Assembly: GCF_030160015.1 (NCBI RefSeq)
Contig: NZ_BSNN01000002.1
Span: forward strand, 806,001 to 870,000
DNA length: 64,000 nt
Origin: Amylibacter marinus
GTDB taxonomy: Bacteria > Pseudomonadota > Alphaproteobacteria > Rhodobacterales > Rhodobacteraceae
Direction of reading: 5' to 3'
The notes below the pieces were generated by a model, which was not told the DNA's origin, did not search any database, and worked only from the letters and a program-made list of their open reading frames with translations. Shown in pieces: positions 10,705-56,736 of the stretch (the first letter of the stretch is position 1; every line of letters starts with the position of its first letter). Position numbers and translations under genes: made by a program.

Positions 10705-11283
10705 ATGGCAAAACTATATTTCAATTACTCTACCATGAACGCAGGAAAATCCACCCTGTTGTTACAGGCCAGCTATAATTACCGCGAGCGCGGCATGGGC
10801 ACGTTTTTATTAACGGCCGCCCATGATGATCGCGCTGGCGAGGGCATTATCGCATCGCGTATCGGGATAGATCAAAAGGCCACAACCTATTCCCCCGATG
10901 ATGATCTGTACCGCATCATCGAAAAGCGCACGAAAGAAACCCCCACCGCCTGTGTTTTTGTAGACGAGGCGCAATTCTTAACCCCAGATCAGGTCTGGCA
11001 ATTGGCGCGCGCGGTAGATCACTGGAATGTACCAGTTATGTGCTACGGGTTGCGGGTAGATTTTCTGGGCAATGCATTCCCTGGATCAGCGGTTTTACTG
11101 GCCCTTGCGGATGAAATGCGCGAGGTGAAAACAATCTGTTTTTGCGGCAAGAAGGCCACCATGGTGGTGCGACAGGATGGCGAAGGAAATGTACAAAAAG
11201 AAGGTGACCAGATCCAAATTGGCGGTAATGAAACCTATGTTTCCCTGTGCCGTCGCCACTGGTGCGAGGCGGTTGGGAAATAG
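10705..11283 (+). CDS. tdk: Thymidine kinase
   Basis: 192 residues. The P-loop is MNAGKST (residues 12-18), the Walker B-like segment FVDEAQFL, and the lasso/zinc domain carries CFCGKKATMVV and CRRHW cysteines. It phosphorylates thymidine to dTMP in the salvage pathway (type II, cytosolic kinase). The ATG at 10705 is preferred over TTG at 10699. The gene stands alone, with about 113 bp before nrdR. Confidence 0.96.
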   Translation: MAKLYFNYSTMNAGKSTLLLQASYNYRERGMGTFLLTAAHDDRAGEGIIASRIGIDQKATTYSPDDDLYRIIEKRTKETPTACVFVDEAQFLTPDQVWQLARAVDHWNVPVMCYGLRVDFLGNAFPGSAVLLALADEMREVKTICFCGKKATMVVRQDGEGNVQKEGDQIQIGGNETYVSLCRRHWCEAVGK

Positions 11284-11396
11284 GCTAAACCACCACCCCT
11301 AGTGTTGCCAAAGTGACTCTACCCAAATATGGGAATACTGTGTATAAGATCCCTAAATTATACTAAAACCGAGCACAAACCCAAGGATCAGGCCCC

Positions 11397-11867
11397 ATGA
11401 GATGTCCGTTTTGCGGTAATACCGATACCCAAGTGAAAGATAGCCGCCCAGCCGAAGACCATGTGGCGATCCGACGCCGCCGGTTTTGCCCCTCTTGTGG
11501 GGGTCGTTTCACCACATACGAGCGTGTTCAGCTGCGCGATCTAGTAGTGGTCAAGAAAAATGGCAAACGCGAGGATTTTGATCGCGACAAACTGGCCCGT
11601 TCCATCCGAATGGCGCTGCAAAAGCGCCCCATCGAGGCTGATCGCATTGAACAGCTGATCTCTGGCATTGTGCGTCGCCTAGAAAGCATGGGCGAGGCAG
11701 ATATCGATAGCGCCAAGATTGGGGAAATTGTCATGGATACCATGGCCCGCATTGATACTGTGGCCTATGTGCGTTTTGCCTCCGTATATAAAAATTTCCA
11801 AGCGGCTGATGACTTTGAAGAGTTTGTCAAAGAGTTGCGCCCACCAGAACCCAAAGAAGAGGATTGA
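11397..11867 (+). CDS. nrdR: Transcriptional repressor NrdR
   Basis: 156 residues. The N-terminal zinc ribbon has Cys3, Cys6, Cys31 and Cys34 (MRCPFCGN ... [13 protein letters not shown]), followed by an ATP-cone domain starting at [16 protein letters not shown]. NrdR senses ATP/dATP and represses ribonucleotide reductase genes. The stop overlaps the ribD start in TGATG, so translation is probably coupled; nrdR-ribD is a widespread pair. Confidence 0.97.
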
Positions 11868-44613: not shown

Positions 44614-45201
44614 TTAGTTGGCAGCGGCATCCTTTGCGCCCTCGATCAGGGCCTCTTTTGCAGCATCAGTGGCGGCCTCTGTGGCCGTTTCGGTTGCCAC
44701 GTCTGTTACCGCATCGGTCGCGGCATCCATCGCGGCGTCTTTAGCGCTGTCTACAACATTCTCTACAGCACTCTCAACGGCCTCTTCAGTCGCGGTCTCC
44801 ATTTGGTCTTTAACCGCTTCTTTCACCATATCGTCAACCGCATCTGGGACCAAATCGCCTGCTTTTTCCGTCACGCTTTCCATGGCCTCTTTGGCGGTTT
44901 CTGTTGCGTTATCTCCCGCCGCCTTAAGCGCATCCTTGGCTTGCTCTTCAACGGTTTCTACTGCTGTTTCGACGGCCTCTTTCATCGATTCCGCGCCGGC
45001 TTCCATGGCCTCTTTAGCCTCTTCCACGACCTCTTCGACTGCGTCTGATGATGCATCCTTTGTCATCTCATCTGCATCTTTTTTCATGGTTTCCATAGTC
45101 TCGCTATGATCCATATCGCTTTGATCGCCAGTTCCGATAAAGAAATATGCGCCCAGCGCGATTGCGGCCAATAGTGCGGCGATTGGGATTGCTTTGTTCA
45201 T
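44614..45201 (-). CDS. Ala/Glu-rich amphipathic-helix protein with N-terminal anchor
   Basis: 195 residues from ATG 45201. A hydrophobic start (MNKAIPIAALLAAIALGAYFF) serves as membrane anchor or signal, followed by about 160 residues of low-complexity helix made of A, E, D, K, T, V and M with regular small-residue spacing (for example EEVVEEAKEAMEAGAESMKE and TDAVTDVATETATEAATDAA). This resembles LEA-like or apolipoprotein-like repeats rather than an enzyme. It has its own terminator. The function is unknown; stress or envelope protection is one guess. The opposite strand also stays open through this region because of the codon bias. Confidence 0.7.
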   Translation of the reverse strand: MNKAIPIAALLAAIALGAYFFIGTGDQSDMDHSETMETMKKDADEMTKDASSDAVEEVVEEAKEAMEAGAESMKEAVETAVETVEEQAKDALKAAGDNATETAKEAMESVTEKAGDLVPDAVDDMVKEAVKDQMETATEEAVESAVENVVDSAKDAAMDAATDAVTDVATETATEAATDAAKEALIEGAKDAAAN

Positions 45202-45413
45202 TGTTTGCTCCAAATGTTACGGCATAAGTGTCGTTCCGCTTGCAGATGTGCCCTTGCGCACAGATTTACAAGCCCAATTAGATAAAGTTTTAATTTAGGA
45301 GGGAATCCGCATAACTTGGCCATTGCCCCCAGCCCCCGCACTCGGTACAACTTGCATAATGTGCCAATACTTTTAGGCTTGGCATACATCTAACTACAAA
45401 AGGATCAAGAACC

Positions 45414-45968
45414 ATAGCTCGCAGACCACATCACGCGCCACCACAGCGCGACACGGGACCCCGCGCAAACGACCGCGTCGTGGCACCCGAAATCAGACTT
45501 ATTGGCGCAGACGGCCAGAACGTTGGCGTTGTATCGCCAGACCGCGCGAATGCCATGGCCCGCGAGGCAGGGCTGGACTTGGTGGAAATTTCCCCAAATG
45601 CCAAACCCCCCGTTTGCAAAATTATGGATCTCGGCAAGTTCAAGTACGAACAGCAAAAACGAGAAGCCGAAGCCCGCAAAAAGCAAAAGATCATTGAGGT
45701 AAAAGAGGTGAAATTCCGCCCCAATACCGATACGCATGATTTCGATGTGAAAATGCGCAATGTCTACAAGTTCTTGGAAAATGGCGACAAGGTCAAAATC
45801 ACCATGCGGTTCCGCGGCCGTGAAATGGCCCACCAAAACCTTGGGCTGCAATTATTAAAACGCGTCGAAGAAGCGGTGGTCGAGGCCGAGGCTGGTAAAA
45901 TCGAGGCCCACCCCAAAACTGAGGGACGGCAAATGACCATGATGATCGGCCCGATCGCAAAAACCTGA
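45414..45968 (+). CDS. infC: Translation initiation factor IF-3, ATA start codon
   Basis: 184 residues. The family begins with [20 protein letters not shown], which is encoded directly upstream of the first ordinary start (GTG 45480); the only codon in the right place is ATA at 45414, 9 bases after AGGA. The rest is standard: [20 protein letters not shown] in the N-domain, the lysine-rich linker [18 protein letters not shown], and the C-domain [15 protein letters not shown]. Rare start codons (AUU in E. coli) allow IF-3 to limit its own synthesis. A terminator follows. IF-3 binds the 30S subunit and checks initiation codons. Confidence 0.92.
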
Positions 45969-45977
45969 TTTTTTTTT

Positions 45978-46006
45978 AAACCGCCCCGATGGGGGCGGTT
46001 TTTTTT
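45978..46006 (+). terminator. Intrinsic terminator after infC
   Basis: Stem aaaccgcccc / gggggcggttt with a 2-3-base loop followed by a run of eight T's, 10 bases after the infC stop. The A's on the 5' side could also make it work on the other strand. Confidence 0.9.
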
Positions 46007-46033
46007 CTGCCTAGTCTTGTAAAAGCACGTGTT

Positions 46034-47695
46034 ATGAAAATCCTCATTCTTGGTGGTTACGGTGTATTTGGCGGGCGCTTGGCAGAGCTGTTGTGCAATA
46101 TACCTACGCTGGAAATTATTGTCGCTGGGCGCAACCTTGCCAAGGCCAAGGCCCAATGCCGCGCGCTACGCGGTGTGACACATTTCACGCCCTTAGCCTT
46201 GGATCGGGATGACATTCAACCGGCTCTGCTGGCCCACAGGCCTGATATCCTGATCGACGCCACGGGCCCATTCCAAGATTATGGCGAGAACCCTTATGCC
46301 GCCCTAAAGGCCTGTATAGAAACCCAAACCAACTATATAGATTTCGCCGATGGCGCTGATTTCGTCTTTGGTGTTTCCCAATTTGACCAAGCGGCCCAGC
46401 AGGCTGGTGTATTTTGCTTGTCTGGTGTTAGCTCTTTTCCGGTACTTACGGCAGCAGTTATGCGCGAGATTGCCCAAAAGATGGAGATAACCACGCTAAC
46501 AGGGGGTATTGCGCCCTCTCCATATGCTGGTATCGGGCTAAATGTTATGCGCGCGGTGATCAGCTATGCAGGCGGGGAGGTAACCCTGCTGCGCAATGGC
46601 AAAGAAATAAAGGCGAAAGGGCTGGCAGAAAGCCAGTATCACACAATTTCCCCACCCGGCATTTTGCCCTTGCGTCGTATTCGGTTTTCGCTGGTCGATG
46701 TACCTGATTTACGAGTTATCCCCCCAGAACATCCCCAGTTGCGCACCATCTGGATTGGCGCAGGCCCTGTGCCGGAATCTCTACATATTGCGCTAAACTT
46801 GCTGGCTAAATTACGCGCGGCCCTGCGCCTGCCCCCCCTTACCCGCTTTGCCGGACTTTTTTACCGCGTGCTAAATCTGATGCGTTTTGGCGAGCATCGT
46901 GGCGGAATGTTTGTATCCGCCACGGGGATCCATCAGGGGAGGCCCCATCGCATTAGCTGGCATTTAGTTGGCGAGGGCGACGACGGCCCTTATATCCCCG
47001 CGATGGCCATTGAGATCGTTGTTCGAAAAACTTTGGCAGGATCGCCCCCCGCCGCGGGGGCAAGAGAAGCCGTGAACGCAGTGGAATTGGCAGATTACGA
47101 TGCCCTATTTTCCAAACGTGCAATATCCACTGGGTTTCGCGAAACCACCAATTCACATGCGCCTCTGTATCGTCAAATATTGGAAGACAGCTACGATACC
47201 TTGCCAGAAAGCATACAAACACTGCATGATCTCGACGACCGAATGGAATTCAAAGGCCAAGTTGAAATCACATCGCCCCACAAGCGCCTGAACAGAATGA
47301 TTGCACGGCTGTTTCGTTTCCCGACCCAAAGCGGAGAAATGCCCGCCACCGTTCGATTTCAGCGCAATGTAGATGGTTCTGAGCGCTGGTCTCGTGATTT
47401 CAATGGCCATAAGTTCCACTCGGTTCAATCCAAAGGGTGCGGGAAATCCAAACACCTGATTGAAGAACGCTTTGGGCCCATCACCGTAGCCCTTGCGCTG
47501 GTTATCAAAGATCAGAAACTACACCTGATCGCACGCCATTGGAATATTCTGGGCATTCCAATGCCCCGCTTTTGCATGCCCAACGGCAAGGCAGTGGAGT
47601 ATCAACACAACAAAAAGTTTCATTTTGATGTGGAAATTCGCCTGCCGTTTATCGGACGATTGGTGCATTATAAGGGATGGCTTGGCCCTGAATAA
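46034..47695 (+). CDS. Saccharopine-dehydrogenase-like protein with DUF4166 C-terminus
   Basis: 553 residues from ATG 46034. The N-terminal Rossmann domain begins ILILGGYGVFGGRLAELL and has ILIDATGPFQDYGENPY and YIDFADGADFV. The C-terminal part (from about 380: DTLPESIQTLHDLDDRMEFK, MPATVRFQRNVDGSERWSRD) matches DUF4166, often fused to such dehydrogenases. The substrate is unknown. It is not close enough to true lysine-pathway enzymes to claim saccharopine. Confidence 0.75.
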   Translation: MKILILGGYGVFGGRLAELLCNIPTLEIIVAGRNLAKAKAQCRALRGVTHFTPLALDRDDIQPALLAHRPDILIDATGPFQDYGENPYAALKACIETQTNYIDFADGADFVFGVSQFDQAAQQAGVFCLSGVSSFPVLTAAVMREIAQKMEITTLTGGIAPSPYAGIGLNVMRAVISYAGGEVTLLRNGKEIKAKGLAESQYHTISPPGILPLRRIRFSLVDVPDLRVIPPEHPQLRTIWIGAGPVPESLHIALNLLAKLRAALRLPPLTRFAGLFYRVLNLMRFGEHRGGMFVSATGIHQGRPHRISWHLVGEGDDGPYIPAMAIEIVVRKTLAGSPPAAGAREAVNAVELADYDALFSKRAISTGFRETTNSHAPLYRQILEDSYDTLPESIQTLHDLDDRMEFKGQVEITSPHKRLNRMIARLFRFPTQSGEMPATVRFQRNVDGSERWSRDFNGHKFHSVQSKGCGKSKHLIEERFGPITVALALVIKDQKLHLIARHWNILGIPMPRFCMPNGKAVEYQHNKKFHFDVEIRLPFIGRLVHYKGWLGPE

Positions 47696-47768
47696 TACGC
47701 CAATAAATTCCTGTATTGTCCATGAGATTTTGCTTTCATTGGCCTCAAAACACCCCTAGATTGTGCTC

Positions 47769-48671
47769 ATGATAAATTCCTTTAATGGCCTAAGCACGAC
47801 GGCTCGGGCCTCAATTCTGATGATTATTGGCGTCCTATTCTTCTCATTCATGGATGGAATAGCCAAAGGACTTTCTACCAATTTTCACACCCTTGAGATC
47901 ATTTGGGCGCGCTACTTCTTTCAGTTCCTATTCTCTTGCCTTATTTTGTTACCCAACCTCACCCAATTGATGCGTACAAAATACCCAAAACTGCAGCTGA
48001 TCCGATCGCTGTTTCTATTTGGCGGCACTATGGGGTTCTTTTTCGCTATTGCCTATATGCCTCTGGCGGATGCCACAGCCATCTTTGAGGTGGCCCCTCT
48101 GATCATCACCACGCTAGCTTTTGTGGTTTTGAAGGAGCGCGTCGATTTGCGGCGCTGGATTGCAGTGATAGTTGGGCTTTTGGGGGCGCTGATTATCATT
48201 CGCCCAGGTAGCAGCGCCTTTAACATCTATAGCCTCTTACCGTTTTTCGCGGCCTTTTGCTTTGCCTGTTATACCGTATCAACACGCTTCTTAGGCCAAG
48301 AGGAAAATCCATGGACCAGCTTTTTGTACACGGGGCTGATCGGCACAATTCTAGCGACACTAATGGTACCCAGCGTGTGGCAAACACCCGATCTGTTCCA
48401 ATGGTTACACTTAGCGGCGGTTGGGGCATTTGGAATGATAGGGCACTTTTTCTTGATCCGTGCACTATTCATAGGCGAGGCATCATTTTTGGCACCATTC
48501 GCCTATATCAGCCTTGCGTTCAACGCGCTGTGGGGCGTGCTGTTTTACAACGAAGTTCCCGATATTTACGTTTTAATCGGATCCGCAATTATTGTAGGTG
48601 CAGGGATCATTATTTGGCGCATTGAGACCAAACAAAAGAAGAAAATCATCGTCCCCGCACCGCAATTTTAA
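47769..48671 (+). CDS. EamA/DMT family transporter
   Basis: 300 residues with ten hydrophobic helices in two EamA repeats (from LMIIGVLFFSFMDGIAKGLS; second from LLPFFAAFCFACYTVSTRFL). The conserved Glu/Pro region VAPLIITTLAFVVLKERVDL ends the first repeat. An inner-membrane exporter of metabolites or amino acids; the substrate is unknown. ATG 47769 is preferred over GTG 47763. It is convergent with the DUF1223 gene (13 bp apart). Confidence 0.85.
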   Translation: MINSFNGLSTTARASILMIIGVLFFSFMDGIAKGLSTNFHTLEIIWARYFFQFLFSCLILLPNLTQLMRTKYPKLQLIRSLFLFGGTMGFFFAIAYMPLADATAIFEVAPLIITTLAFVVLKERVDLRRWIAVIVGLLGALIIIRPGSSAFNIYSLLPFFAAFCFACYTVSTRFLGQEENPWTSFLYTGLIGTILATLMVPSVWQTPDLFQWLHLAAVGAFGMIGHFFLIRALFIGEASFLAPFAYISLAFNALWGVLFYNEVPDIYVLIGSAIIVGAGIIIWRIETKQKKKIIVPAPQF

Positions 48672-48684
48672 CCAACATATTCTG

Positions 48685-49407
48685 TTATGAGCCAGAGCCG
48701 GCCAATTTGCGTGCGGCAAAAACGGGGCCTGCGTTATATCCTTGGACAATTAGGGCATAATCGCCGGTTTTAGGCAGATCAAAACTGACAGTAGAGTTTG
48801 ATTTACCATCCCAGTTGCCAACCCGCGTAAAGCTTTTGACCGTATTCACATAGGAAATCGTGCGACCCGCATTCTCGCCGCGCTTGATCTTAACTGTTTC
48901 CATCGGCGAATATTCCACCAAATTCAGAACAGCGCGCCCCAATTCACCGGCATTACTGGCCAGCGAGACCTTGATGGTGTTTCCCTTTTGCGTCCAGCTG
49001 ACATCTGCCGCCTCGTGCTGGTTTCTCAGGGCTTTCACCGCCTGATTAATCCGCGAAACACTACGGCCAGATCCGCCCGCTACCTCAGCAACACCATTGA
49101 AAATCATCTGCGGTGTTACACGACGAGAACGTTTGATGATCTGCGCATTGTAGCGTGCCTGACGCTCACCAAATTTTGCGATAGCAAATTGGTCTTTCCA
49201 GCCAAGATAATCCCAGTAATCCACATGCATGCTTAAGGCGATCACATCATCATGTTTGGACAATTTACGCAGTATTTCATCTGCTGGTGGGCAAGAAGAA
49301 CACCCCTGAGATGTAAAGAGTTCTACCACAATCATGGTGTCGTCGGCCTGGGCCGCGGTTGCGGTTGCCAAAACAGCCGCTGATGCTAGTGTTTTAAAAA
49401 AATTCAT
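48685..49407 (-). CDS. DUF1223 exported thioredoxin-fold protein
   Basis: 240 residues. The signal peptide MNFFKTLASAAVLATATAAQ is followed by the thioredoxin-like core VELFTSQGCSSCPPADEIL, with the CxxC pair that defines DUF1223, and ALSMHVDYWDYLGWKDQFA. It is probably periplasmic and redox active; its role is unknown. In relatives this gene usually lies next to acnA and the ccm genes. Here two extra genes and an acnA remnant lie between it and ccmA. Confidence 0.85.
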   Translation of the reverse strand: MNFFKTLASAAVLATATAAQADDTMIVVELFTSQGCSSCPPADEILRKLSKHDDVIALSMHVDYWDYLGWKDQFAIAKFGERQARYNAQIIKRSRRVTPQMIFNGVAEVAGGSGRSVSRINQAVKALRNQHEAADVSWTQKGNTIKVSLASNAGELGRAVLNLVEYSPMETVKIKRGENAGRTISYVNTVKSFTRVGNWDGKSNSTVSFDLPKTGDYALIVQGYNAGPVFAARKLAGSGS

Positions 49408-49489
49408 GCTGTGTCCCACTTCGTCTATCGTTGACCTACCCTAGAAATCTATACGATAAAAAGCGAATAAAGAAAACGCGAGCACAGCG

Positions 49490-49942
49490 TTACAAAAACC
49501 AAACCCACCGCCCGGTACGGGCAAAATAATCCTCGGCTTCACGATCAAATGCCTCGCGCAGCTTACGTTCTTCTGGGGTGATATAATTTTTACCCAAGAA
49601 AAAAAACAGCCAAACCGCTGGCAAAAGCGCCTGAACAGATCCCAATAAAACACCCGTGCCGAGAACCAGTAACACCATGCCCAGATACATAGGGTTGCGC
49701 GAAATAGTGAACGGGCCGCCCACCATCAGGGTGCTCGGTTTTTGGCGCGGTACAATTGTGGTTTTGTACCTGCGAAACCAGATACCGGGCCATATCAGAA
49801 GAACCAGCGAAAGAGTAATCAGCCCATAGGCCAACAGTGGCATATCAAGCAATACAACAGGATAGAGCAAATGCAGCACCACCGCGCAAAAGCTGGCGAA
49901 AATGGTCCAAAACGGTGGGATGTTGAAATGTTTTAGGGTCAT
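49490..49942 (-). CDS. Isoprenylcysteine carboxyl methyltransferase-like membrane protein
   Basis: 150 residues from ATG 49942. Four to five helices (LLYPVVLLDMPLLAYGLITL and others) and the family signature GGPFTISRNPMYLGMVLLVL, then EERKLREAFDREAEDYFART. These are the marks of the ICMT/NnrU-like PEMT fold, which binds S-adenosylmethionine at the membrane. The substrate is unknown (phospholipid or small molecule). It lies between DUF1223 and the repeat protein, 60 bp after the latter, on the same strand. Confidence 0.8.
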   Translation of the reverse strand: MTLKHFNIPPFWTIFASFCAVVLHLLYPVVLLDMPLLAYGLITLSLVLLIWPGIWFRRYKTTIVPRQKPSTLMVGGPFTISRNPMYLGMVLLVLGTGVLLGSVQALLPAVWLFFFLGKNYITPEERKLREAFDREAEDYFARTGRWVWFL

Positions 49943-50002
49943 CGTTTCAAAAAGCACCAATAACTGGTGCTTTTCAAGGGGTAATAAATGAACGCACAAA
50001 GA

Positions 50003-50623
50003 TTAGATGTAATCCAATTCATCTTCTTCGTCCTCATTATGCTCGACTTCGTCATCCTCTTCCGCCGCAGCGTCTGGTGCCAATAACAAAGCAGTAAAGT
50101 TTAGAGGTTCTGCATTATCTGGGCTATCGGATTCTGGCCCCTCCTCTTCTGGCTCTTCTGGTGGGCGACACCGCCAATAGCTATACTTGCTGTACCCCCA
50201 GCGCGAGCCGCCGGCACTGCGAAAATTTGGCTCGGCATTATCTGGGCTATCTGATTCTGGGTCGTCCTCTTCTGGCGAACGGCACCGCCCATAGCTATAT
50301 TTGCTGTACCCCCAGCGCGATCCGCCAACACTGCGGAAACCTGGCTCGGCGTTGTTTGGGCTGTCTGATTCTGGATCGTCCTCTTCTGGCTCTTCTGGTG
50401 GGCGGCACCGCCCATAGCTATACTTGCTGTAGCCCCAGCGCGATCCACCGCCGCTGCGATAGCTTGGCTCGTCATCCTCTTCTTCTTCGTTTTCTTCTTC
50501 GCGTTCGCGCCTGTATCTGCGCCCATAGGATTGATAAGAGCTGCGATCCTGCTCTTCTTCCTCACGCCAGCGTTTCCGCCCTCTTCCACCTCTAGAACCA
50601 TAACCGAAACGGCCACCGCGCAT
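50003..50623 (-). CDS. Tandem-repeat protein with RG-rich N-terminus and acidic C-terminus (unrecognised)
   Basis: 206 residues, no family recognised. Order: an Arg/Gly start (MRGGRFGYGSRGGRGRKRW); a charged section with EEEEQD and RREREEENEEEEDDE; then three copies of a 38-41-residue unit centred on GGSRWGYSKYSYGRCRPPEE (copy 3 has YSYWRC), followed by ESDSPDNAEP; and a very acidic C-terminus. One Cys per unit is kept. It has no enzyme-like core or signal peptide and looks disordered, with aromatic and arginine residues like phase-separating or RNA/DNA-binding proteins. It is on the minus strand between the acnA remnant and a membrane methyltransferase gene. A strong AAGGAG-type site (ttacaaggagaat) precedes the ATG, so it is probably translated. 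Confidence 0.6.
   Translation of the reverse strand: MRGGRFGYGSRGGRGRKRWREEEEQDRSSYQSYGRRYRREREEENEEEEDDEPSYRSGGGSRWGYSKYSYGRCRPPEEPEEDDPESDSPNNAEPGFRSVGGSRWGYSKYSYGRCRSPEEDDPESDSPDNAEPNFRSAGGSRWGYSKYSYWRCRPPEEPEEEGPESDSPDNAEPLNFTALLLAPDAAAEEDDEVEHNEDEEDELDYI
50112..50471 (-). repeat. Three direct repeats (123, 114, 123 bp) within the repeat protein gene
   Basis: Units at 50112-50234, 50235-50348 and 50349-50471 are nearly identical over most of their length. The middle unit lacks 9 bp (three codons of the PEEP stretch). All keep the reading frame, so the array codes for the protein repeats and can expand or contract by slippage or recombination. Confidence 0.85.
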
Positions 50624-50849
50624 AATTATTCTCCTTGTAATAAAATAAATTCACATATTTGGGCCGCACCAAAAAGAATTGGATGTTCAAAATAATTTAA
50701 GAATCAATTTTGGCAGGCTTGCGCCTCAATTTAGACACATTTAAGACATATTTCAAGGCGCCAAAGTGTTAGTGTGGTGATTTTACTCACTAAAAAGCCG
50801 ATTTTAGCAACCTAGATGCAGTCATAATTTCAACATTTCCACCCCAGAT

Positions 50850-51707
50850 TTAGCTGAATTTAGCCAAATCACGCAAAACATAGTGCAGCACACTGCCCTG
50901 CTCGAGGTGTTCAACTTCGACTTCTGTATCGATCCGAGAGCACAGCTCGATATCGATGTTTCCCCAGTGGAATAGGTGATAGTACAGAGGGTAATTGATT
51001 GCGGCTTCAGCGTTCCCTCTTGCCCAGAAATAGTCGCGATCTCCTCGCCCGTTAGGCCAAGAGAATTGCGCGTATCCCCCTTAGGGAATTCAAATGAAGC
51101 AACACCCATACCCACCAAATTCGCGCGATGATCCCGCGCCATATCGCTCGCCCCCAAATATCGCGCAGGAACACATCCTTGCCATTGTCATTTTGGCCCA
51201 TGGGATCGCAGGTAAGATTGATATCCAAGGTGCCCGCAATTGCATCAGCCACAACACGGCCGTGGCGTGCAACTTCTCTACATCCTTAAGAACCAAATCG
51301 GTGCCGATTGTTCCCTCGGTCATCTCACCGGCAGCTCAAATCCAAAGACCTTAGGGATCGGCCTCGATACCCCTACTCCCCCCCAGCCTTGCACAAAGAC
51401 GCAGTTCACCATTGTCGTATGGCTATCGGTGCCCACCAATTTACTAGGATAGGCAATTTCACGCGGGTTATTCCCGCCTGTGCGACTCATGTGCCAAAGG
51501 CCTTGATATCCTCGGAGGAAATTGTCCTACCACCGTCCTCGAAGCGCACTATGTTTTCCAATATCACCCGTAGCACCGCCGGCGGTTTTGAGAAATCCTC
51601 TAATCCCGCCGCCTGAGCAGCAGGGATCGGGTAAAATCTAGCGCCCTCTCGCCAACCTGAAGCGTTCTGCGGGTTCTATTTGTGTCTTGTCTGACAGTCA
51701 CAGTCAT
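50850..51707 (-). pseudogene. acnA: Decayed aconitate hydratase gene (acnA remnant)
   Basis: Separate pieces in different minus-strand frames match AcnA in order. N-terminus: MTVTVRQDTNRTRRTLQVGE from 51707. Then AGLEDFSKPPAVLRVILENI with VRFEDGG (about 51620-51540). Then [20 protein letters not shown] (about 51480-51420). Then TEGTIGTDLVLKDVEKL (about 51320), ADAIAGTLDINL with KDVFLRDIWG (about 51250-51160), YGAGSSRE, NLVGMGVASFEF with SLGLTGEEIATISG (about 51130-51030), and the intact end EHLEQGSVLHYVLRDLAKFS to 50850. A full gene is about 2.7 kb; this is 0.86 kb with frameshifts and large internal deletions, including the Fe-S cysteine region. The start and end positions are those of a normal acnA. 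It cannot make an active enzyme. Confidence 0.93.
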
Positions 51708-51865
51708 GTTGGATCGACAATATTAAAAGGGTTATATTGCGCCTTCTATAAGCGATACCCCCTTCTCAGGCAAGAAATCCGCCTTGGGAATACATAGATG
51801 CGGGCCTCAGGCAAAGCACTGTCGTCAGGCTTCCTTTAGGGTGCGGATTAGGCTATGCCCAGCCC

Positions 51866-52483
51866 ATGAGCCTATTGATGAAAATTGAAAGCCTAACCTG
51901 TAGACGTGCAAGTACGCCTATTTTACAGGGTGTAAATTTAGAACTGCATTCAGGTATGATCACCGTTCTGCGCGGGCCAAATGGATCGGGCAAAACAACC
52001 CTGTTGCGCCATTTGGCAGGGTTGGGCTCTGATACCCAGGGCCTAGACACCGAGGAGATTGTTTTCAGCGGTCATTTAGATGCCATCAAAGCCACACTAA
52101 CCGTGGGGGAGAACCTTCGGTTTTGGGCGGGGGTTTATTCTAAGGCGCTTGATCCGGCGATCATCGAGAATTTTGAACTGTCTGACCTAATCGAGCGCCC
52201 AGCTGGGCGTCTATCGGCAGGGCAAAAGCGACGCTTGGGTCTGGCCCGTGTTGTTCTCTCGGGGGCAAAGGTCTGGCTATTGGATGAACCGACCGTTTCA
52301 CTGGATACGGCCAGCACGGATCGATTGGTTGCCCTGATCGCGGATCACTCTGCCCGCGGGGGGGCCTGTATCCTATCCACCCATATTGATCTTGCCCTAC
52401 CACAGGCACAAATCCTTGATATCACCCAGTTTAAGGCAAGCTCGCAAGAGGCCGATCCCTTCTTGAGTGGGGATTTCACATGA
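51866..52483 (+). CDS. ccmA: Heme exporter ATP-binding protein CcmA
   Basis: 205 residues. Walker A GPNGSGKTTLLRHLAG, signature GRLSAGQKRRLGLARVVL, Walker B VWLLDEPTVSLD. With CcmB it forms an ABC complex that releases holo-CcmE from CcmC in System I cytochrome c maturation. It begins the ccmABCDG operon, 158 bp from the acnA remnant; that gap must hold the promoter. It overlaps ccmB by 4 bp. Confidence 0.92.
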   Translation: MSLLMKIESLTCRRASTPILQGVNLELHSGMITVLRGPNGSGKTTLLRHLAGLGSDTQGLDTEEIVFSGHLDAIKATLTVGENLRFWAGVYSKALDPAIIENFELSDLIERPAGRLSAGQKRRLGLARVVLSGAKVWLLDEPTVSLDTASTDRLVALIADHSARGGACILSTHIDLALPQAQILDITQFKASSQEADPFLSGDFT

Positions 52484-53130
52484 TCCCGATTATTTTGCGC
52501 GATGTTCAATTGGCCCTACGATCCGGTGGGGGATTTGGCCTAACGTTGGCGTTTTTTTTGGTGCTGGTGATGTTTGTCCCCTTTGGGATTGGTGCGAACC
52601 TAGAACTCTTGGCGCGGATCGCGCCGGGCATGCTGTGGATCGGGGCATTGTTGTCCTGCATCCTGTCTCTGGATCGGATTTTCCAACTCGATTGGGAGGA
52701 TGGCACCCTCGAGGCTCTGGCGACCTCGCCCATTCCGCTGTCGGGGATTGTGTTATCCAAGGCCACCGCCCATTGGATCACCACCGGCCTGCCCCTAACG
52801 ATGATATCCTTGCCGTTGGGGTATCTGTTAAATCTGCCGCCTGCACAATATGGGCTGGTTTTGCTCTCTTTGCTCTGTGGCACGCCAGCACTATCATTTA
52901 TCGGGGCCTTTGGGGCGGCCCTGACTGTGGGGGTAAAGCGGGGGGGCTTGTTATTATCGTTGCTGGTGATGCCGCTTTATATCCCCACGCTGATCCTTGG
53001 GGCACAATCGGTGGCGGTGGGCACAGCAGAGCCTGGAATCATGCTGGCACTTTTGGCGGCATTATCACTATGCTGTGTGGTCTTCATACCCGCGGTTAGC
53101 GCACTGGCACTGCGCGCGAATTTGCGATAA
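52480..53130 (+). CDS. ccmB: Heme exporter permease CcmB
   Basis: 216 residues, six hydrophobic helices. Family markers: start IPIILRDVQLALRSGGG, QLDWEDGTLEALATSPIPLS and VMPLYIPTLILGAQSVA. It is the permease partner of CcmA. It overlaps ccmA by ATGA. A gap of 68 bp to ccmC follows. Confidence 0.92.
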   Translation: MIPIILRDVQLALRSGGGFGLTLAFFLVLVMFVPFGIGANLELLARIAPGMLWIGALLSCILSLDRIFQLDWEDGTLEALATSPIPLSGIVLSKATAHWITTGLPLTMISLPLGYLLNLPPAQYGLVLLSLLCGTPALSFIGAFGAALTVGVKRGGLLLSLLVMPLYIPTLILGAQSVAVGTAEPGIMLALLAALSLCCVVFIPAVSALALRANLR

Positions 53131-53198
53131 ATTCGCCGCATTGACCCAACGGTCCCTTCATTCTATGCCACGACTAACAAAACAGGAAACCTTGCCCA

Positions 53199-53924
53199 AT
53201 GTCTTTATGGGAATACGCAAATCCAGCCAAGTTTATGGCGCTTAGCACGCGGGTATTGCCAGCCCTTGCCTGTGCCAGCGCAGTGCTGTTGCTGAGCGGG
53301 CTGATCTGGGGCTTTTTCTTTACCCCAGATGATTACAAGCAAGGCTCTACAGTCAAAATCATATTCCTGCATGTGCCCACTGCCTTGATGGCGATTAATG
53401 CATGGCTGATGATGCTGGTGGCGTCTTTGATTTGGCTGGTGCGCCGCCACCATGTATCCGCCCTAGCGGCCAAGGCGGCGGCGCCAATAGGCATCACCAT
53501 GACCTTGATCGCACTGGCCACCGGTGCAATTTGGGGCAAGCCTATGTGGGGAACCTATTGGGCATGGGATCCCCGCCTGACCTCTTTTATGATTTTACTG
53601 GTGTTTTATCTTGGTTATATGGCGCTGTGGCGCGCGATCGAGGATACGGATTTGGCTGCAGACCTGACCTCAATCCTTTGCATGGTTGGGTCTGTCTTTG
53701 CCTTGCTGTCACGCTATGCAGTGAATTTCTGGTCTCAGGGCCTGCACCAAGGAGCCTCACTCTCGCTGGATAAAGAGCAACATGTCGACAACGCGTTCTA
53801 CTTTCCGCTGGTTATTTGCATGCTCGGGATGGGTCTGTTGTTTATCACCCTAGTTTTGATCCGTACACGTACAGAGATCCGCTTACGCCGCCTATCTGCG
53901 TTACAAAAAAGGACTAGCCAATGA
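53199..53924 (+). CDS. ccmC: Heme-handling protein CcmC
   Basis: 241 residues, six helices. The tryptophan-rich WWD-type motif is WGKPMWGTYWAWDPRLTS, with conserved histidines before (IIFLHVPTALMAIN) and after (NFWSQGLHQGASLSL). It attaches heme to CcmE in the periplasm. It overlaps ccmD by ATGA. Confidence 0.95.
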   Translation: MSLWEYANPAKFMALSTRVLPALACASAVLLLSGLIWGFFFTPDDYKQGSTVKIIFLHVPTALMAINAWLMMLVASLIWLVRRHHVSALAAKAAAPIGITMTLIALATGAIWGKPMWGTYWAWDPRLTSFMILLVFYLGYMALWRAIEDTDLAADLTSILCMVGSVFALLSRYAVNFWSQGLHQGASLSLDKEQHVDNAFYFPLVICMLGMGLLFITLVLIRTRTEIRLRRLSALQKRTSQ

Positions 53925-54085
53925 TTGATCTTGGGAAATATAGCGAAACTGTACTGGTTTCTTATGCAGTTTCTATCTTGCTGTTGGCGCTATTGATCTG
54001 GATCACATTTGCACAATCCAAATCCGCCAAGAAGGCCCTGTTGGCCGAAGAAGCCCGCAACGCGAAGGCCAACGAGAATGCCTAA
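53921..54085 (+). CDS. ccmD: Heme exporter protein CcmD
   Basis: 54 residues: MIDLGKYSETVLVSYAVSIL opens a single membrane helix, followed by a basic, Ala/Lys-rich tail ending KANENA. Size, topology and place between ccmC and ccmG fit CcmD, which helps hold the CcmABC complex and release CcmE. It overlaps ccmC by 4 bp and ccmG by 8 bp. Confidence 0.9.
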   Translation: MIDLGKYSETVLVSYAVSILLLALLIWITFAQSKSAKKALLAEEARNAKANENA

Positions 54086-54602
54086 AATCAATCCTCTATA
54101 CCTGTTACCGCCGGTTATATTCATCGGCCTTGCTGTGATGATGTTCGTGGGCTTGCAACGCGAAAACCCGAATGATCTGCCCAGTCAAATGATCGGACGC
54201 CCGGCACCGACGCTAACCACAACGCCACTTGCCGGCCATGCCATGCTCACGCAGGATGATTTGCAAAAATCAGAGGTGAAGATTGTAAACTTCTGGGCCA
54301 GCTGGTGTGCGCCTTGCCGTGTGGAACATCCCAATATTCAAGCCCTCGCCGATATGGGTATAGCGATATACGGGATCAATTATAAAGACAAAGCAGAGCA
54401 GGCCAATCAATTCCTGAATTCACTGGGCAACCCCTATGCCAAGATTGGCGCAGATGCAGGGCGAACGGGGCTGGACTGGGGATTATACGGAGTTCCAGAA
54501 ACCTTTGTTATCGGCCCCGATGGTCGAGTTTTGTATCGTCACGCGGGCCCCGTTACGACCCGCGTGATGAATGACACAATTCTGCCGCTGCTGGCGAATT
54601 AA
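54078..54602 (+). CDS. ccmG: Thiol:disulfide interchange protein CcmG/DsbE
   Basis: 174 residues from ATG 54078, inside the ccmD end. An N-terminal anchor (LYLLPPVIFIGLAVMMFVGL) is followed by a periplasmic thioredoxin domain with the active site NFWASWCAPCRVEHP and the cis-proline region YGVPETFVIGPDG. It reduces apocytochrome c cysteines for heme attachment. The stop shares TTAA with the ribH stop on the other strand. ccmE, ccmF and ccmH are not in the window. Confidence 0.93.
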   Translation: MPKINPLYLLPPVIFIGLAVMMFVGLQRENPNDLPSQMIGRPAPTLTTTPLAGHAMLTQDDLQKSEVKIVNFWASWCAPCRVEHPNIQALADMGIAIYGINYKDKAEQANQFLNSLGNPYAKIGADAGRTGLDWGLYGVPETFVIGPDGRVLYRHAGPVTTRVMNDTILPLLAN

Positions 54603-55036
54603 TACTCTATCGCATCCATGGCCAAAACGGCGCGCGCTGCCTCGGCGCCCTTTTTGACAAAATGTTTGGTATAAAATTCGATGTGATCTGGCGTCTCCTG
54701 GAATTCATGCGGCGTCAGGGATACGGAATAAACAGGCACGCCTGTATCCATTCCTGCGCGCACCAGCCCATCAACCACCGCCTGTGCCACAAATTCGTGG
54801 CGGTAAATACCGCCATTCACCACCAGCGCGGCACAGACAATACCGTCGTATTTTCCGGTCTCTGCCAGTTTTTTGGCCACCAACGGCATTTCCAGCGCTC
54901 CTGGCACATGGATTTCTTTTACATCGCAACGGCGCTCGGCCTTTTGCATTTCCTCTTCAAACCCTATCTGAGTTTGATCCACAATCGGTGCATGCCAACG
55001 GGCCTTTACGAATGCTATTTTAAGGGGTTTTGTCAT
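54599..55036 (-). CDS. ribH: 6,7-dimethyl-8-ribityllumazine synthase (RibH2-like)
   Basis: 145 residues. Blocks: KIAFVKARWHAPIVDQTQIG, DVKEIHVPGALEMPLVAKKL and ALVVNGGIYRHEFVAQAVVD. The RWHA start and NGGIYRHEF pattern resemble the decameric type II (RibH2) enzymes of Brucella and rhizobia more than standard RibH. It condenses the RibD product with dihydroxybutanone phosphate. AAGGAG precedes the ATG. It stands apart from ribD and ribE and is preceded by an FMN riboswitch. It is convergent with ccmG, overlapping its stop by 4 bp. Confidence 0.92.
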   Translation of the reverse strand: MTKPLKIAFVKARWHAPIVDQTQIGFEEEMQKAERRCDVKEIHVPGALEMPLVAKKLAETGKYDGIVCAALVVNGGIYRHEFVAQAVVDGLVRAGMDTGVPVYSVSLTPHEFQETPDHIEFYTKHFVKKGAEAARAVLAMDAIEY

Positions 55037-55100
55037 ATTTGGGTCTCCTTCTTACAGACAAAACCCAGAGCGAAAGACAGACGGATTGCGCCATCTGCCC

Positions 55101-55222
55101 ATTCTCTACCATCCAGACTATCACTGTCGGCCAAGGGATTTCACCTTGTCTGCTGACCCCTCACAATGAGGGCGCTCGCGGGCTATCACCGCCGGTGGGG
55201 AATTACACCCCGCCCTGAGAAT
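55101..55222 (-). promoter_or_regulatory. FMN riboswitch (RFN element) upstream of ribH
   Basis: On the minus strand the conserved RFN core appears in order: ATTCTCAGGGCGGGGTG at the 5' side, AATTCCCCACCGGCGGTGAT, AGCCCGCGAGCGCC, then CAGACAAGGTGAAATCC, and the closing GGTAGAGAAT. The P1 stem pairs the ATTCTC and GAGAAT ends (55217-55222 with 55101-55106). It binds FMN and turns ribH off when flavin is abundant. About 65 bases to the start codon include a 7-bp hairpin (CAGATGG / CCGTCTG), perhaps the expression platform. Confidence 0.95.
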
Positions 55223-55363
55223 GCGCCGAATATAGCTTGAAAAAATATGTGGTGAAAGCGGAATTTAGGATTGCCGTCGCGTAAAAAACTAGATTTTAAG
55301 CCTCTTGTTTTGTCGAACTAACACTGGCAACTTGATTAGACCTATTGGTTCAAAGGTTTTTTG

Positions 55364-55603
55364 ATGTTGCTCCGTTTGAGTATTGCCCTATCGACGATCA
55401 TCACCGCGATCTTCCTGTCGCTATTTTATCTGCACTACTTTAGGAAGCGTGACTGTTTCAATGCACAAGGGCGTTGTTTCGATCATGAGCATGGGGTGAT
55501 TTATCATGAACAATCAGGATTGTTCTGGCTATCCGGTGCGATCCTTGTAGCAATTATCACCTTGGTGCTTATCAAGCGATTGCGCCGAAAAAAATTCCAC
55601 TAA
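55364..55603 (+). CDS. Small hypothetical membrane protein
   Basis: 79 residues from ATG 55364 (a TTG lies one codon before). Two hydrophobic helices (IALSTIITAIFLSLFYLHYF and FWLSGAILVAIITLVLIKRL) flank a polar loop with CFNAQGRCFDHEHG, whose two Cys and two His could form a disulfide or bind metal. A basic tail ends the protein. I do not recognise the family. It stands between the riboswitch and pyrC. Confidence 0.55.
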   Translation: MLLRLSIALSTIITAIFLSLFYLHYFRKRDCFNAQGRCFDHEHGVIYHEQSGLFWLSGAILVAIITLVLIKRLRRKKFH

Positions 55604-55692
55604 CCGCTGAGCCCTGATCATTCTGTATTCAAACAGCCCATTGCCCCCCAGCCCCATTTGCGATACCCAAAACCAAAGTAATGAGGTGCCCC

Positions 55693-56736
55693 ATGTCAGA
55701 TCAAACCATCACAATTACCCGCCCAGATGATTGGCATTTGCACCTGCGCGACGGCGATATGCTGCGTGGTATTTTGCCCGAAACGGCCCGCCATTTTGGC
55801 CGCGCGATCATCATGCCAAACTTGATCCCCCCCGTGGTCAGCGCCGATGATGCCCGCGCCTACCGCGATCGCATTTTAGCGGCGCGCCCAGAGGGATCTG
55901 GATTTACGCCGCTGATGACCCTGTACCTAACAGATAGAACCGATCCCAGCGATGTGCGCGCCGCGTTTGCGGACGGTGTTGTGAATGCGGTAAAGTACTA
56001 CCCCGCAGGTGCCACCACCAATTCCGACAGCGGTGTGACCGATATCAAGAACGTAATGCCCGTGCTGGAAACCATGGCCGAGATAGGGCTAACCCTATGT
56101 ATTCACGGCGAATCCACCGATCACAGCGTTGATATTTTTGACCGAGAGGCGGCCTTTATCGACACCACCCTTGACCCCCTGCGCCGTGCCCTACCAGAGC
56201 TGAACATCACATCCGAGCATATCACCACCAAAAACATGGTGGATTACGTGTTGTCGCAGGATAAAAACCACGGCGCCACCATCACCACCCATCACCTGAT
56301 GATCAATCGCAACGATATGCTGGTTGGCGGGATCCGCCCGCATTACTACTGCCTGCCGATCGTGAAACGCGAAGAACACCGCCAAGCCTTGCGCGCCGTG
56401 GCCACATCTGGAGATTCTCGTTTTTTCCTTGGCACAGATAGCGCCCCCCATGCTGATCCCACCAAAGAGGCCGCCTGCGGCTGCGCGGGATGTTTCACCG
56501 CCACCAATACCATATCCTGCCTTGCACAGGTATTCGAAGACGAAGGCGCGCTGGATAAGCTAGAGGGCTTTGCATCTCTGCACGGGCCTGCGCATTACGG
56601 TCTGCCCGCCAACAGCGATACCATCACTCTAACCCGCCAAGATACGCCCGTGGACTATCCCGAGACTATCGCAACCGATGCTGGGAGTGTTACTGTATTT
56701 AACCCTCTGGTGCCTTTGCACTGGCGGGTGGGCTAG
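55693..56736 (+). CDS. pyrC: Dihydroorotase PyrC
   Basis: 347 residues from ATG 55693, with GAGGTG upstream; an ATG at 55681 adds four residues. Metal ligands lie in [13 protein letters not shown], the carboxylated lysine in [18 protein letters not shown], and later [12 protein letters not shown] and [14 protein letters not shown]. It closes carbamoyl-aspartate to dihydroorotate in pyrimidine synthesis. It is the E. coli PyrC-like (class II) form. It is followed by 90 bp and dnaB. Confidence 0.95.

Follow-up and report, generated by a model that had tools for sequence, protein, structure and literature searches.

A unitary pseudogene of the native aconitase gene acnA beside ccmABCDG in Amylibacter marinus, probably left by a recurrent AcnA-to-AcnB swap in the Rhodobacterales

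Escherichia coli possesses two aconitases, AcnA and AcnB. This pair is also named in the abstract of PMC8987015. The locus considered here recalls that pair, as well as two kinds of event that are already known, namely, the unitary pseudogene and isofunctional gene displacement. At the level of titles and abstracts, no account of an AcnA-to-AcnB swap was found among the papers listed. In many cases, gene displacement is deduced solely from a gene being absent; in the present case, the displaced enzyme can be seen at two stages of decay within one genus. Specifically, in the 64,000-nucleotide stretch of the Amylibacter marinus genome analysed here (the window), positions 50850-51707 of the minus strand were confirmed as corresponding to a unitary pseudogene of the native, ancestral acnA, given the collinear homology, disabling mutations, native synteny, lack of an intact orthologue elsewhere and relaxed selection found. 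In what follows, G000 is the genome holding the window, while the genus refers to the GTDB genus containing Amylibacter sp. SFDW26.

The region spanning window positions 45001 to 56000 was searched by tblastn using 15 long ORFs as queries, namely, canonical AcnA from 12 genus relatives and three others, comprising two unrelated or reverse-frame ORFs and the AcnA paralogue of the same genome. The 12 canonical AcnA queries yielded collinear minus-strand fragments distributed over three frames (best E value, 1.4e-23), with the matched segments corresponding to residues ~1-25, 25-79, 78-96, 204-261, 263-288, 557-591 and 797-861 and then to residue 896, in the numbering of the 896-residue form. Sequence and alignment alike placed an ATG at 51707 and a TAA, in register, at 50850-50852. 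Frameshift-aware alignment revealed 185 identical residues out of 280, 284 and 280 aligned to AcnA of G009, G021 and G020, respectively, with 7, 7 and 6 changes of frame, and five deletions of ~124, 11, 270, 179 and 25 codons; ~280 of ~897 codons survive. The cysteines that we take, from their motif, to hold the Fe-S cluster (residues 448, 514 and 517 of the G009 segment) all fall within deleted parts of the relic. When the G009 protein was compared by tblastn with the real 858 bases, the best match scored 76.3 bits and eight HSPs had an E value below 1e-3. As a negative control, the same comparison was repeated with 200 dinucleotide shuffles of these bases. Now, the best score was 25.4 bits and no HSP had an E value below 1e-3.

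An earlier reading of the window, made from the sequence alone, had drawn the pseudogene between these same two ends and described ordered short AcnA stretches scattered over different minus-strand frames, with both native termini kept and about two thirds of the gene missing, including the Fe-S cysteines. The fragments running from residue 1 to the end, the start and stop codons still in place, the count of surviving codons and the positions of the motif within deletions bear out this description, as does the alignment to acnA of relatives that it had proposed. The features of the locus are listed in Table 1.

Table 1. Coordinates of the acnA relic, its neighbours and the AcnA paralogue (window positions unless a contig or locus is named)
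Feature	Position	Strand	Basis or remark
DUF1223 gene (PF06764), syntenic landmark	48685..49419	-	Pfam
PEMT/ICMT-like methyltransferase	49490..49999	-	Adjoins acnA in several relatives
acnA remnant (unitary pseudogene)	50850..51707	-	Native start codon to native stop codon; tblastn and frameshift-aware alignment
C-terminal fragment reaching native end	50853..50954	-	tblastn and alignment
C-terminal-part fragments, AcnA aa ~797-861, and short preceding piece	50957..51152	-	~25-codon deletion at ~51132; frame change at ~50956
Fragment, AcnA aa ~557-591	51154..51258	-	~179-codon deletion at ~51154
Fragment, AcnA aa ~263-288	51259..51329	-	Frame change at ~51263; ~270-codon deletion at ~51259 takes out Fe-S cysteines
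Motif-bearing fragment, AcnA aa ~204-261	51332..51448	-	11-codon deletion at ~51380; frame change at ~51331
Fragments, AcnA aa ~26-88	51449..51633	-	Frame change at ~51495; ~124-codon deletion at ~51449-51461
N-terminal fragment, AcnA aa 1-25	51636..51707	-	Frame change at ~51635
ccmA, divergent neighbour of acnA	51866..52483	+	Synteny, Pfam
ccmB, ccmC, ccmD, ccmG	52480..54602	+	Pfam
acnA2, divergent 869-aa AcnA paralogue	G000 contig C2 ~1,227,500-1,230,100; L014 10517-13126		~6 kb from contig end

The order of genes in the window is DUF1223, methyltransferase, repeat ORF, acnA relic and ccmABCDG, and relatives in the genus carry an intact acnA at the same site. In 24 acnA-bearing genus loci, several of which are short or ended by a contig edge, ccmA was present in the same locus in 20, lying within 2.5 kb in 18 and 6-7 kb from acnA in L019 and L114, and was not seen in L017, L027, L029 or L122; the DUF1223 gene was found on the far side as well in 10. 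As such, the proposal that this pseudogene sits in the native place of acnA was upheld. The possibility of a stray inserted fragment, rather than the native gene, was ruled out by this synteny, together with the start and stop codons being in place. Separately, the repeat ORF between the methyltransferase gene and the relic (50003-50623, minus strand) would encode 206 residues, comprising a basic, RGG-rich N-terminal stretch, three ~40-residue repeats (of the GGSRWGYSKYSYGRC... type) and an acidic tail, for which a Pfam search returned no match.

Constraint was considered by comparing the 280 surviving codons of the relic with 13 intact relatives. Differences between the relic and intact relatives at codon positions 1, 2 and 3 amounted to 0.252, 0.198 and 0.622, respectively, as compared to 0.125, 0.078 and 0.539 between intact pairs. 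The excess in the relic was thus 0.127 (CI 0.088-0.165) at position 1, 0.119 (CI 0.082-0.158) at position 2 and 0.083 at position 3, the last being presumably near saturation. An equal excess at the first two positions points to neutral change, with no codon constraint acting on the relic. In a tree, the relic fell among AcnA sequences of the genus on a long branch (0.70, as compared to no more than 0.28 for intact members of the genus). The sister species G002 and G007 differ at fourfold sites by a p-distance of 0.196 in total, or ~0.1 per lineage. Set against this distance, an excess of ~0.12 per site suggests, assuming equal rates and neutral fourfold sites, that the loss of acnA is about as old as the split between those sister species. 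The sequence-only reading had called the loss fairly recent; judged from these distances, the term would hold on the scale of species and needs qualifying beyond it.

The aconitases left to G000 (99.98% complete; 14 contigs) were next considered. A search of the whole genome identified LeuC, a 930-residue AcnB and a divergent AcnA-like protein of 869 residues (encoded by acnA2), and no canonical acnA elsewhere, the only AcnA paralogue being 43% identical. AcnB passes the NCBIfam equivalog PRK09238 (953 bits; cut-off, 782) and retains the GSCM and GC-LCMGNQ motifs when aligned to E. coli AcnB (1l5j). On these grounds, it is predicted to be an intact enzyme of the other aconitase family with the same expected activity; speaking against this, it lies below the TIGR00117 acnB cut-off (375 vs. 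1287 bits). NADP-isocitrate dehydrogenase, the cycle enzyme looked at besides the aconitases, is also kept (L150; PRK08299, 763 bits vs. a cut-off of 335), hinting that the cell may still require the aconitase reaction. The original proposal had been that the organism either holds another aconitase elsewhere or has changed its central metabolism. The first was found to be the case, with acnB and the divergent paralogue both being present; given these two and isocitrate dehydrogenase, the second is not needed.

To place this loss in context, 33 genomes of the genus were surveyed. AcnB was found in six, namely, G000, G002, G017, G022, G044 and G048. In the 22 genomes with a completeness of 90% or more and no more than 5% contamination, canonical AcnA is present in 18 (with the G001 copy being split over two contigs) and is absent or found only as a relic in four, i.e., G000, G002, G007 and G022. 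AcnB occurs in three of these four, as compared to two of the 18 with canonical AcnA, namely, G017 (Amylibacter sp. SFDW26) and G048, each of which thus has both enzymes. At the same site, G002 carries its own, smaller acnA relic, comprising residues ~16-60 and the last 17 residues. No significant AcnA match was obtained in the corresponding interval of G007 (~150 bases) or of G022 (~1.5 kb, containing other ORFs, as judged by eye). In the latter (L031, ~11150-11640), a different short repeat ORF, with repeats of the GHQ-D-HEN type, and another ORF were noted by eye where relatives carry acnA.

In a tree of seven proteins from the 24 genomes kept once rows with 400 sites or fewer were dropped, G002 and G007 are placed, with a support of 100, in a group with the acnA-bearing G021, G042 and G047, while G022 and G000 lie outside. 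This suggests three or more losses of acnA in the genus, barring a regain in the G021 group. Such regain is not favoured, since acnA of that group occupies the native site and no indication of regain is seen in the AcnA tree, although deep support in this tree is weak. A single shared loss is unlikely, since the acnA-keeping G021, G042 and G047 group with G002 and G007 and not with G022 and G000. In the AcnB tree, obtained by a quick method and including a G044 row that is a 246-residue piece, the six genus rows need five changes, at least four being forced by well-supported branches, with G022 placed with G002, G017 with G048, and G000 and G044 apart. The simplest reading of this tree is that acnB was gained several times within the genus. 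In G044 (65% complete), acnB (L125, 3-755) lies ~1.3 kb from ccmA, on the flank that acnA occupies in relatives.

Two further loci in the genus can be described. In Amylibacter sp. SFDW26, acnB stands alone on a contig of 3,699 bases (L022 / L054), while its close relative G048 carries acnB on a 928-kb contig; a small circular acnB plasmid in the former was considered and rejected, as the 3,699-base contig shows no terminal overlap. In G045 (79% complete), in which no AcnB was found, acnA is interrupted at L127 ~2973-2975 by a loss of ~28 codons and a frame change, reflecting either a pseudogene at an early stage or an error of assembly.

The distribution of both enzymes was also considered in 390 evenly drawn Rhodobacterales genomes that are at least 90% complete. 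AcnB was found in 85 and canonical AcnA was missing in 17, as read from the table by eye, with all but G000 (i.e., 16) being rescored; the 17 include G000, with its relic, and G213, whose only AcnA-like protein is 41% identical. Of the 17 genomes lacking canonical AcnA, 16 have AcnB, as compared to 69 of the 373 with canonical AcnA; a few of these 373 might hold only a distant paralogue, as two AcnA candidates were scored per genome and identities were obtained for the best matches only (Fisher p 1e-10, ignoring kinship). Counting G213 as an AcnA keeper gave 15 of 16 vs. 70 of 374 (p 6e-10). The 16 AcnB-positive genomes without canonical AcnA span 12 genus-level groups and have a median size of 3.4 Mb, as compared to 4.2 Mb for the 69 with both (rounded sizes; p 6e-4, again ignoring kinship). 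The exception among the 17 is G430 (99% complete), in which neither canonical AcnA nor AcnB was found; the same holds for G007 (92%) in the genus, and both cases speak against the swap. AcnA is absent in seven of 29 named Rhodobacterales genomes with AcnB, namely, four Shimia, Marivivens donghaensis, Paradonghicola geojensis and Thalassovita mediterranea; these 29 were chosen by title out of 80 loci, carry no completeness figure and overlap the 390. Further acnA relics were sought, at an E value of 0.01, in 25 entries corresponding to 22 distinct genomes (G071 and G131, G073 and G394, and G077 and G082 being the same by their coordinates), and matches were limited to LeuC, LeuD, a weakly matching AcnB and the paralogue of G213. 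Across the ccm loci of 16 genomes, a single match at 1e-3 was obtained, involving a reverse-frame ORF as query rather than AcnA. A similar search does recover the G000 and G002 relics.

In the set of 80 loci, acnB adjoins ccm-like genes in L049 (on the basis of a single weak ccmA-like match), L051, L053, L057, L072, L073 and L079, and next to acnA in L040, L090 and L106, with L040 also being beside ccm and L090 also being near a DUF1223 gene. Hence, acnB lies by ccm or by acnA in 10 of the 80, with an eleventh, L094, offering only a ccmG-like match. The presence of acnB beside ccm, next to or instead of acnA, in other Alphaproteobacteria suggests that exchange may be favoured at the ccm locus. 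AcnB is also encoded by plasmids (38 of 72,556 records), with many of these 38 coming from Rhodobacterales, including Leisingera, Aliiroseovarius, Paracoccus and Ruegeria. As 37 of the 38 are predicted to be non-mobilizable, the case for plasmids as vehicles of acnB is weakened and they may be considered only as possible carriers.

Taken together, these observations make it highly probable that acnA in the window became a unitary pseudogene upon displacement by acnB, and that this swap was repeated in the order. Specifically, acnB, encoding a different aconitase family, would have been acquired from elsewhere in the lineage of the window and would have rendered acnA redundant, with acnA then being lost through frameshifts and large deletions. 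Elsewhere in the order, the same two steps would have recurred, with gain of AcnB, a period in which both enzymes coexist and loss of AcnA. Both the activity of AcnB and its gain having preceded the loss of acnA in this lineage are presumed, and the window would so represent an advanced stage of the AcnA-to-AcnB swap, one that recurs. Whether one may go further, to a one-way exchange repeated throughout the Rhodobacterales, with AcnB arriving by horizontal transfer, coexisting with AcnA and followed by decay of AcnA, more commonly in smaller genomes, with the window and G002 offering two independent fossils and the ccm locus perhaps being a favoured exchange site, is a proposal for which the chances appear about even.

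Because G000 also holds the divergent paralogue, AcnB is not the sole candidate successor. It is conceivable, yet unlikely, that acnA2 took over the TCA cycle step, leaving AcnB in a side role. The acnA2 product is intact, matches the NCBIfam AcnA subfamily PRK12881 above its cut-off (1105 vs. 905 bits) and can be matched along most of its length to human IRP1/cytosolic aconitase, retaining the cysteine and substrate motifs; no other of the 33 genus genomes showed a second AcnA-like protein comparable in length and identity, and G213, which has AcnB and not canonical AcnA, also has an AcnA-like protein, though one only 39% identical to acnA2. On the other hand, the acnA2 product misses the TIGR01341 aconitase_1 cut-off (888 vs. 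945 bits) and is only 43% identical to canonical AcnA, while its gene lies among transporter and catabolic-looking genes (named by eye as those of oligopeptide ABC and TRAP transporters and a GntR regulator), suggesting a substrate-specific role. Plasmids also carry acnA2-like genes, with the best 15 matches listed being 51-54% identical. As judged from its sequence and surroundings, acnA2 possibly encodes a substrate-specific hydratase. AcnB is the better guess as successor, because G002 and G022, which lack AcnA, have AcnB and no acnA2 was seen in either.

The relic could conceivably serve in some residual role, for instance as a small protein or RNA that acts on AcnB or on the expression of ccmA. 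The start codon, stop codon and both ends of the relic are preserved, and a precedent may exist in Synechocystis, where a small protein resembling the N-terminal part of a larger protein is described, in the title of the report, as a regulator of aconitase activity (PMC7336809). Yet, the N-terminal frame of the relic breaks after ~25 codons, codon positions 1 and 2 have changed without constraint, the G002 relic retains a different stretch and G007 and G022 gave no significant match in the interval, making any such role very improbable. Hardly any weight can be given to the idea that a sequencing or assembly artefact disguises an intact acnA, since errors would not delete ~600 codons in five blocks and raise substitutions evenly at positions 1 and 2, in a near-complete genome in which canonical acnA was not found elsewhere, and since G002 carries its own relic at the same site. 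Loss of acnA following its displacement by acnB thus remains the preferred explanation.

A missing acnA in Rhodobacterales does not imply a broken TCA cycle. The wider interest of the locus lies in the swap recurring across the order with a fossil of it still visible in the window. Moreover, the existence of genus relatives with AcnA only, with both enzymes or with AcnB only renders the order of events and the preference for AcnB testable in culturable roseobacters. Like other unitary pseudogenes of housekeeping genes, the relic is a broken orthologue in its syntenic place, with no second copy of that orthologue; here, however, a core step of the TCA cycle is concerned, one covered by an enzyme of another family. 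As in non-orthologous gene displacement, AcnA would have been replaced by AcnB, with the same expected activity, although in this case the displaced gene can still be seen as a fossil and the swap is found in 12 genus-level groups of a single order. Finally, the same two enzyme families make up the AcnA/AcnB pair of E. coli, yet whereas E. coli has both, AcnA is gone here.
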